From contig CAJIZG010000003.1 of NCBI GenBank assembly GCA_905181865.1, positions 186,001 through 250,000 of the forward strand: 64,000 nt of DNA. Reading direction: 5' to 3'. Shown one piece after another: positions 13,201-15,647 of the stretch. The notes under the pieces are model-generated. The model had not been told where the DNA came from and did not search any database. It saw nothing but the letters and a program-made list of their open reading frames with translations. Both the position numbers and the translations under genes were made by a program. This DNA comes from Urechidicola croceus. GTDB lineage: Bacteria; Bacteroidota; Bacteroidia; Flavobacteriales; Flavobacteriaceae. The first letter of the stretch is position 1. Each line of letters starts with the position of its first letter.

Positions 13201-15516
13201 TTAAACTTTACCGTCCATTTTATCTTTCAACGCTTGTAACGCATCATTAGCATCACCTATTGTTGGTTTTTCAACATCTTGAGATTTCTTAGCTGCAGCG
13301 CTAATATTTCTCTTTTCTTCCGCTCTAAATATAGCAGAGTGAGAAATTACAATTCTTCTATACTCTTTGTTAAATTCTAATATTTTGAAATCAACAACTT
13401 CACCATTTACAATCTTAGCGCCGTCTTCTTTAGACATATGACGTCCAGGAACAAATGCATCTACTCCGTCTTCTAAAACTACGATAGCTCCTTTGTCAGT
13501 AACTTCTTTTACTGTACCAGAATGAACAGAATCAATTGTATATTTAACTTCATGTTTGTCCCATGGATTATCCTGCGTTTGCTTGTGTCCTAAATTCAAC
13601 TTACGACCCTCAACATCCAATTCTAATACTTGAACAGCAAGTTTATCACCTATTGCTGTAAAATCAGATGGGTGCTTCACTTTCTTAGTCCATGATAAGT
13701 CAGAAATATAAACTAACCCATCAATTCCTTCTTCTAATTCAACAAATACACCAAAGTTTGTATAATTCCTTACAATACCCTCATGTGTAGATCCTACAGG
13801 ATATTTCTTAGTAATATCTGTCCATGGATCTGGATGTAATTGTTTGATACCTAATGACATTTTACGATCATCTCTATCTAATGTTAAGATAACAGCATCT
13901 ATCTCATCACCAACTTTTACGAAATCCTGAGCAGAACGTAAGTGAGTCGACCAAGACATTTCAGAAACGTGTACCAATCCTTCTACTCCTGTAGAAACTT
14001 CAATGAACGCGCCATAATCTGCAATTACAACTACTTTTCCTTTTACTTGATCTCCAACTTTAAGATCTGCATTTAAAGCATCCCAAGGGTGCGCGCTTAA
14101 TTGCTTTAATCCTAATTGAATTCTTGTTTTTTGATCATCAAAATCAAGAATTACAACATTCAGTTTTTGATCTAATTCTAAAATTTCACTTGGATGATTA
14201 ATTCTACTCCAAGATAAATCTGTAATATGAACTAATCCATCAACACCACCTAAATCAACAAAGACACCGTAAGAAGTAATGTTTTTAACAACACCTTCTA
14301 ATACTTGACCTTTTTCTAATTTACCGATGATTTCTTTTTTCTGTAATTCGATATCAGCTTCAATCAATGCTTTATGCGAAACTACAACATTTTTAAATTC
14401 GTGATTGATTTTCACAACTTTGAATTCCATTGTTTTCTCTACGTACTGATCGTAATCTCTAATAGGCTTCACATCAATTTGAGAACCTGGTAAGAATGCT
14501 TCAATTCCAAATACGTCAACGATCATACCTCCACGAGTTCTACATTTTACAAATCCATTAACTACTTCACCAGATTCATGCGCAGCATTTACGCGATCCC
14601 ATGCCTTAATTACACGTGCTTTTTTATGAGACAATACTAATTGACCTGTAATATCTTCTCTTTTATCAACCAATACCTCAACAACATCACCTACTGCTAA
14701 GCTTGGGTTGTAACGGAATTCATTTAAGGAAATAACTCCTTCAGATTTAGAGTTAATATCTATAATTACTTCACGCTCATTTTTTCTAACAACCGTTCCT
14801 TCAATTACTTCTCTTTCTGTTACGAAACCTACAGTACCTTCTAAAGCTGCTTCAAAGGCTTTTAATTTATCCTCTTCAACTTCTTCAATACCTTGCTCGT
14901 ATTTATGCCAATTGAAATTTTCTAAAAACTCTTCTGGCGTTGCAGCAGTATTTTCTTCTTCTTCAACTAATTCTAATTTTTCCTCTACCTCTTCATCTGC
15001 TACTTCTGCAACAGGCTCATCAATTACTTCTGCAACTGATTCTTCTAATGCTTCAGGAACAGATTCTTCAGCCACTACCGTTTCTTTTGCAGCAACTGCT
15101 TCCTCAACAACTACTGCTTCTTTTTTTGTTTCTTCTGACACTTCTTTTTGTTTTGATTTTACTTCTTTTGATTCTTCTGTCGTATAGAAAGCTTGAGCAC
15201 CTAAATCTTCTACCAAGACAGTATAAAATATGGCTCTGTACTTATTTCTATTCGATTTACCGATTTTCTCAATCGCAGAAACAATAGCAGCATCTAATGC
15301 ATCACTATCTTCTAAGCCTAACTTTTTAATTAAAAAGTTTTTCTTAATTGCTTCTAATTCTTTTTTGTCTGAACTGGATACTTTTTCGGAGTCCGCTTTG
15401 TAGATTAAAGGTCCTAAACCTTTTGTTACGGCTGCTAATAAATCAGCGTTTAATCCCAATCCTAATTTTTCAACCTCGCTAGTATAAAGGTCAATCTTTT
15501 CTTGTAATTTTGACAT
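13201..15516 (-). CDS. rpsA: 30S ribosomal protein S1 with N-terminal DUF2853-like domain and acidic linker
   Basis: Six S1 repeats readable (e.g. GVVKNITSYGVFVDLGGVDGLVHITDLSW); aa ~1-113 resemble DUF2853 (KVTKGLGP-type motif, KNFLIKKLGL, SNRNKYRAIFY); aa ~114-190 E/V/A-rich. Confidence 0.93.
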   Translation of the reverse strand: MSKLQEKIDLYTSEVEKLGLGLNADLLAAVTKGLGPLIYKADSEKVSSSDKKELEAIKKNFLIKKLGLEDSDALDAAIVSAIEKIGKSNRNKYRAIFYTVLVEDLGAQAFYTTEESKEVKSKQKEVSEETKKEAVVVEEAVAAKETVVAEESVPEALEESVAEVIDEPVAEVADEEVEEKLELVEEEENTAATPEEFLENFNWHKYEQGIEEVEEDKLKAFEAALEGTVGFVTEREVIEGTVVRKNEREVIIDINSKSEGVISLNEFRYNPSLAVGDVVEVLVDKREDITGQLVLSHKKARVIKAWDRVNAAHESGEVVNGFVKCRTRGGMIVDVFGIEAFLPGSQIDVKPIRDYDQYVEKTMEFKVVKINHEFKNVVVSHKALIEADIELQKKEIIGKLEKGQVLEGVVKNITSYGVFVDLGGVDGLVHITDLSWSRINHPSEILELDQKLNVVILDFDDQKTRIQLGLKQLSAHPWDALNADLKVGDQVKGKVVVIADYGAFIEVSTGVEGLVHVSEMSWSTHLRSAQDFVKVGDEIDAVILTLDRDDRKMSLGIKQLHPDPWTDITKKYPVGSTHEGIVRNYTNFGVFVELEEGIDGLVYISDLSWTKKVKHPSDFTAIGDKLAVQVLELDVEGRKLNLGHKQTQDNPWDKHEVKYTIDSVHSGTVKEVTDKGAIVVLEDGVDAFVPGRHMSKEDGAKIVNGEVVDFKILEFNKEYRRIVISHSAIFRAEEKRNISAAAKKSQDVEKPTIGDANDALQALKDKMDGKV

Positions 15517-15639
15517 AGTGCCTAAATTTAAATTGTATCTTACTTAAAACCAGGTTTTTAAACGAAATTCTCTATAAGAGAAATTAATATAATTTAGATG
15601 CTCAACCCTCTTCAAAACCTGTACTCGTAAAAAGGAGTG

Positions 15640-15647
15640 CAAATTTA
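15640..15647 (-). promoter_or_regulatory. Bacteroidota -7 box (TAAATTTG on minus strand) for rpsA
   Basis: CAAATTTA on plus strand about 125 bp upstream of the rpsA start, implying a leader of more than 100 nt. Confidence 0.5.

Follow-up and report, generated by a model that had tools for sequence, protein, structure and literature searches.

Fusion of DUF2853 to ribosomal protein S1 in Urechidicola croceus and other Flavobacteriaceae

Organization of the fused gene

The window, by which we mean the whole 64,000-nucleotide stretch of Urechidicola croceus DNA that was analysed, carries on its minus strand an open reading frame (13201-15516) that begins with ATG and encodes a protein of 771 amino acids. 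Three parts can be distinguished: an N-terminal DUF2853 domain with a helical fold (amino acids 1-111; minus strand, 15184..15516), an acidic and disordered linker (amino acids 112-193; minus strand, 14938..15183), and the body of a bacterial ribosomal protein S1 (amino acids 194-771 and the stop codon; minus strand, 13201..14937), in which the conserved N-terminal segment PEEFLENFNWHKYEQGIE is followed by six S1 (OB) domains. That S1 and DUF2853 are united in a single reading frame is established at the level of the gene sequence.

The N-terminal domain is identified by family models, predicted fold and selection. Amino acids 13-106 match PF11015 (DUF2853) with an E-value of 8e-30 and 103.8 bits, against a curated Pfam cut-off of 25, in an alignment that covers model positions 4-98 of 101, and amino acids 5-111 match a solved DUF2853 protein (PDB 2pyq_A, from Jannaschia sp. 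CCS1) with an E-value of 1e-24, so that the likeness to the standalone protein runs through the domain from end to end. The AF2 model of amino acids 1-111 has a pLDDT of 91.7 and was paired by Foldseek with 2pyq (TM 0.90, E 1.5e-7); in this search of the PDB nothing significant was returned beyond 2pyq, itself a DUF2853 protein, and the fold suggests no function. DUF2853 normally takes the form of a separate protein of about 115 amino acids, whereas in the window it forms the N-terminus of ribosomal protein S1, the separate small protein being the common form of the family and no defining requirement of the Pfam model.

The remainder of the protein is unambiguously S1. Amino acids 193-770 match NF004953 (30S ribosomal protein S1) with 902.8 bits against a cut-off of 720, PF00575 is matched within the same region (E 4e-74), and the alignment with a solved S1 of 591 amino acids (9zcd_A) opens at residue 6 of that protein as compared with residue 192 of the window protein. 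The likeness to Bacteroidota S1 therefore extends over its full length and takes in the conserved N-terminal segment as well as all six S1 domains. In the full-length AF2 model a folded DUF2853 unit (amino acids 1-110, pLDDT about 75-87) is followed by a disordered stretch (amino acids 114-192, below 50) and by six beta-rich S1 units. The first-pass annotation had read the frame as a complete DUF2853 protein placed ahead of a standard six-repeat Bacteroidota S1; the significant PF11015 match, the folded N-terminal domain and the six repeats bear this out, and its domain boundaries were correct to within a few residues. The fused protein is the only full-length S1 of the window genome, the remaining hits being lone S1 domains within further long frames, and it likewise holds the only DUF2853 of that genome.

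The linker and a possible vestige of the S1 start

Over its 82 residues the linker contains 29 Asp or Glu and 8 Lys or Arg, and the DUF2853 domain has a net charge near zero. Unfused flavobacterial S1 proteins open with a low-complexity tail, either short or long (MSEETKK... in Lutibacter, MAEKAK... in other genera), and, unlike the window S1, have no folded domain ahead of it. Across the family this tail varies greatly in length and composition, and is sometimes very long or rich in Lys and Ala; in two loci (L186 in G020 and L189 in G140) a long Lys/Ala-rich tail takes the place of the acidic one. Most of the linker resembles the acidic tail of the unfused proteins and is probably its equivalent, VSEETKK within the window linker standing against MSEETKK at the start of unfused Lutibacter S1. 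The linker had been described at first as an acidic joint between the two proteins, and acidic it is, but it appears to be largely the ancestral N-tail of flavobacterial S1 and not a new sequence.

At the position of the ATG that starts unfused S1 (MSEET), the window has a GTG codon (V126; minus strand, 15139..15141) followed by TCA GAA GAA ACA. It may be a vestige of the old start or a weak internal start, a reading that is suggestive only, as the low-complexity tail is full of repeats and the match does not hold generally. GTG or TTG occupies this position, with A-rich sequence upstream, in the window and in L088 and L093-L095, and is conserved in only a minority of fused genes; V126 as proof of an ancestral start was dropped for this reason.

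Expression from the native rpsA promoter and leader

Upstream of the fused frame lie a 5' leader with covarying helices (minus strand, 15517..15643) and the element TAAATTTG (minus strand, 15640..15647), which matches TAnnTTTG, the consensus of the -7 promoter element of the Bacteroidota. Fused and unfused rpsA genes have in common one such promoter element, a leader of about 120-130 nt, and the sequence ..AAGATACAA.. shortly 5' of the ATG. As promoter and leader are common to both types, DUF2853 has its place downstream of the native rpsA leader and ahead of the S1 frame, which means that the fusion is expressed as S1. In nearly all fused genes examined the ATG start follows directly after the native leader.

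Distribution and history of the fusion

Of 14 genomes in the genus of the window genome, 13 gave a match, each of them with DUF2853 and S1 in a single frame. When one genome of each species was scanned, the fusion was found in 52 of the best 80 named loci, including those of Aureibaculum marinum, A. luteum, A. flavum, Lutimonas halocynthiae and L. saemankumensis, and it occurs in many further genera of the Flavobacteriaceae; four other loci (L099, L101, L120, L129) look fused and are interrupted by contig ends. DUF2853 was present in 35 of the 398 genomes of a phylum-wide sample, 31 of the 35 being Flavobacteriaceae, and frames of S1 length were confined in that sample to the window genome and G120. 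Among sampled Flavobacteriaceae genomes it was found in about two thirds (197 of 301). S1 is the partner in every one of the 59 fused DUF2853 domains that were compared. Longer DUF2853 frames in two other genomes (G500, G087) were considered as fusions and rejected, as each proved to be an ordinary separate gene preceded by open frame. A viral origin was considered and rejected, no relative being found among viral contigs.

The median dN/dS within the genus is 0.10 in the DUF2853 domain and 0.09 in S1, against 0.36 in the linker, from which it follows that the N-terminal domain is translated and constrained nearly as strongly as S1 itself. Thirty-seven positions are conserved across fused and separate DUF2853 proteins, and probably the same surface of the domain is kept in both forms.

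The trees of the two halves of the protein differ in how often the fusion state changes. In the tree of the DUF2853 domain all fused copies fall on one side, with a single change of state and weak support, and in the rooted tree of the S1 body there are six changes, at least three of them forced by well-supported branches. Taken together, the two trees fit one old fusion followed by later losses (in Lutibacter, in G002 and possibly in the family core), gains and losses being not separable with certainty from the trees. Since the state of fusion has changed among relatives, DUF2853 is not essential to S1. The proposal that a domain had been attached to S1 in this genome is thus supported as to the fusion, but the arrangement is not peculiar to the window genome and is better seen as an old, clade-wide architecture with later losses.

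Several loci stand apart from this pattern. In L152 (2462-4627), which is fused, the S1 body nests within the unfused core Flavobacteriaceae and the DUF2853 domain groups among other fused copies, which fits either a transfer of the N-terminus or a second, independent event. In two further loci, L194/L191 (G272:C3:295063-296911) and L132 (MAG bin416), rpsA, an essential gene, is split by an apparent frameshift that is probably an error of sequencing or assembly. Separate DUF2853 genes close to the fused type occur in Campylobacterota MAGs (Sulfurovum; L137, L144, L145, L148, L151), near queF-like and fusA genes, possibly by horizontal transfer or through a binning error.

The separate DUF2853 gene

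Most members of the window genus also carry a separate DUF2853 gene of about 115 amino acids, mostly in a block that runs dnaK, sdaA, DUF2853, the last being flanked by yaaA or by a small gene. At the corresponding site of the window genome dnaK, yaaA and the small gene are all retained, sdaA is a broken pseudogene, and no remnant of DUF2853 was found. The decayed sdaA, for L-serine dehydratase, lies at C1:524710-525733 of the window genome (G000; L206). The separate gene has thus been lost from the window genome where sister genomes keep theirs. Two genomes of the Lutimonas group (G025 and G256, 99-100% complete and with the same genus code) have the fused copy only, and several other fused genomes retain a separate DUF2853 besides. 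It would fit this pattern, which is not proof, that the fused domain took over the job of the separate protein.

In the 30 best family loci of the separate gene, menD lies upstream on the same strand in all 30, and 27 of them have cvfB downstream, again on that strand and usually 74-130 bases away. CvfB, identified by PF13509 and PF17783, is by its Pfam domains an RNA-binding protein with S1 domains, and in this it resembles S1; it differs from S1 in being a neighbour of the separate DUF2853 and not fused to it. As menD and cvfB are also adjacent in genomes that have no DUF2853, the link to cvfB possibly reflects inherited gene order only. The order menD-DUF2853-cvfB may stem from one insertion and its subsequent inheritance, and the neighbourhood would offer weak independent support for an RNA-related role of DUF2853.

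A short form of CvfB, of about 145 amino acids, was encountered beside menD in the window genus, in Lutibacter, and in G002 and G033 (G000:C3:615248-615649, L258; also L252-L257); it corresponds to no more than the C-terminal half of the full-length protein.

A possible role at the ribosome

Gram-negative bacteria cannot do without S1, and in the Bacteroidota, which make no use of Shine-Dalgarno pairing, it is central to translation. Docking on the 30S subunit by an N-terminal segment together with domains D1-D2 is established for S1 generally. According to a review (PMC10931766), uS2 is the main contact of D1-D2, and the flexible C-terminal S1 domains bind mRNA. Residues F197, L198, F201, W203, Y206, G209 and I210 of the docking segment, which immediately precedes D1, are invariant across fused S1 proteins, and, with the docking segment kept and no second full-length S1 in the genome, the fused protein presumably serves as ribosomal S1.

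The reading that we favour, and to which we give about even chances, is that DUF2853 is a folded accessory domain carried in cis on S1 and acting in translation initiation or in the handling of mRNA or the ribosome. The only S1 of the cell would be made as DUF2853, a flexible acidic tail and six OB domains, and would probably still dock on the 30S subunit through the conserved N-terminal segment and D1-D2. The disordered tether of about 80 residues would then hold DUF2853 near the mRNA-handling face of every 30S subunit that bears S1, where the domain would perform in cis the task that in related bacteria falls to the separate DUF2853, acting in trans. Once the fusion was in place the separate gene would have become dispensable, as suggested by its deletion from the window genome and by the two Lutimonas genomes that lack it. 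Several observations weigh against this reading: the fold is matched in the PDB by DUF2853 alone, the net charge of the domain is near zero, the state of fusion has changed among relatives, menD and cvfB are adjacent where DUF2853 is missing too, and several fused genomes retain a separate copy. The fusion, its constraint and the loss of the separate gene are read from the sequence, whereas we infer both the ribosomal location and the function of DUF2853.

A broader scenario, which is put forward more tentatively and which we regard as somewhat doubtful, is that DUF2853 represents an unrecognised family of translation accessory proteins associated with the ribosome or mRNA, for which the fusion to S1 serves as the Rosetta stone. 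In the window species and in Lutimonas, every 30S subunit bearing S1 would then permanently carry DUF2853, which might alter the selection of mRNAs in bacteria that do not rely on Shine-Dalgarno pairing.

One alternative, unlikely yet to be taken seriously, is that the fusion merely couples the abundance or expression of DUF2853 to that of S1, the activity of the domain being unrelated to the ribosome and the disordered tail offering a permissive site of attachment. In its favour, the S1 N-tail of the family varies widely and accepts additions, the S1 tree shows repeated changes between the fused and the unfused state, and the DUF2853 fold gives no hint of RNA binding. Against this, S1 has been the sole partner in all of the fused domains compared, the two other long frames being no fusions, DUF2853 is nearly as constrained as S1, and the separate gene is missing where the fusion alone remains.

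Somewhat less probable still is a function away from the ribosome, in which DUF2853-S1 would act mainly as a free RNA-binding protein (in mRNA protection, RNA decay, contact with RNA polymerase or autoregulation through its own leader) and DUF2853 would recruit a partner protein. The retention of the conserved docking segment speaks against such a role, and the leader, although strongly structured and conserved, is common to fused and unfused rpsA, hence DUF2853 is not needed for it. The idea draws on the adjacency of DUF2853 to cvfB, which encodes a non-ribosomal S1-domain protein, and on the many extraribosomal roles of S1, one of which, in gamma-proteobacteria, is to repress its own mRNA (PMC10931766).

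It is improbable that two products are made, a free DUF2853 and an ordinary S1, by cleavage of the linker or by internal initiation at the V126 GTG. The predicted disorder of the linker and the GTG or TTG codons with A-rich upstream sequence in the window, L088 and L093-L095 would permit this, but that codon is unconserved in most fused genes and the tail is of low complexity, the full-length ATG directly after the native leader is retained in nearly all fused genes examined, and the persistence of the fused frame over long times in different genera is hard to square with a routine separation. An artefact of assembly or of start choice, with the true S1 start inside the linker, was ruled out by the in-frame conservation across independent genomes (all 13 of the genus and other genera, including the single-contig G114 and G025), by the purifying selection on amino acids 1-111 and by the lack of any Met, and hence of an ATG, between residues 1 and 331.

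The role at the ribosome that we favour bears on an earlier suggestion that the fusion offers a functional lead for DUF2853, through association with the ribosome or RNA. The joining of the domains stands on family models, fold, selection and phylogenetic spread, and the association appears a sound conclusion to draw from it; the lead gains strength from the separate copy being gone from the window genome and missing in the two Lutimonas genomes, and from the adjacency of the separate gene to cvfB, another gene for an S1-domain protein.

Comparison with other S1 fusions

A precedent is IspH-RPS1 (PMC4746011), in which another protein is likewise joined to S1 repeats and which its authors treated as a Rosetta-stone case. 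There the partner is a metabolic Fe-S enzyme, whereas here it is a small helical domain on a Bacteroidota S1. The Pfam scan gave no match to IspH (LytB) in the window protein, and NF000907 scored 491 against a cut-off of 624 with its best stretch in the S1 part, so that the protein is not of the IspH-RPS1 type. The precedent also serves as a warning that a fusion partner of S1 need not be a translation protein.

In the literature searched, DUF2853 is named in only one paper, an unrelated one that gives it in an annotation list, and no description of a DUF2853-S1 fusion was found, although domain-architecture databases could list it without comment. The domain families themselves are known; what appears not to have been described before is the architecture, together with its conservation across the clade and the loss of the separate gene. 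A folded domain added permanently to S1 would mean that the ribosome of a whole clade has been changed, and the fusion provides the first functional lead for DUF2853, one that is directly testable in cultured species of Aureibaculum and Lutimonas.

Structure of the rpsA leader

The rpsA leader of the Flavobacteriaceae is strongly conserved, in the window as well as upstream of L088-L168 and L172-L211. An Rfam search with it returned no matching family, and no S1 leader appears in the passages found in an r-leader survey (PMC7247131). Its helices covary and are apparently pseudoknotted: CCUUUU pairs with AAAAGG, UUCUGUG pairs with UACAGAA, and a further helix is formed by CAGGUUUU and AAAACCUG in the window and by CAGGAGG and CCUCCUG, or by CGGAAGAG and UUCUUCCG, at other loci. 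Judged from the sequence, the leader is possibly an undescribed S1 leader regulator.
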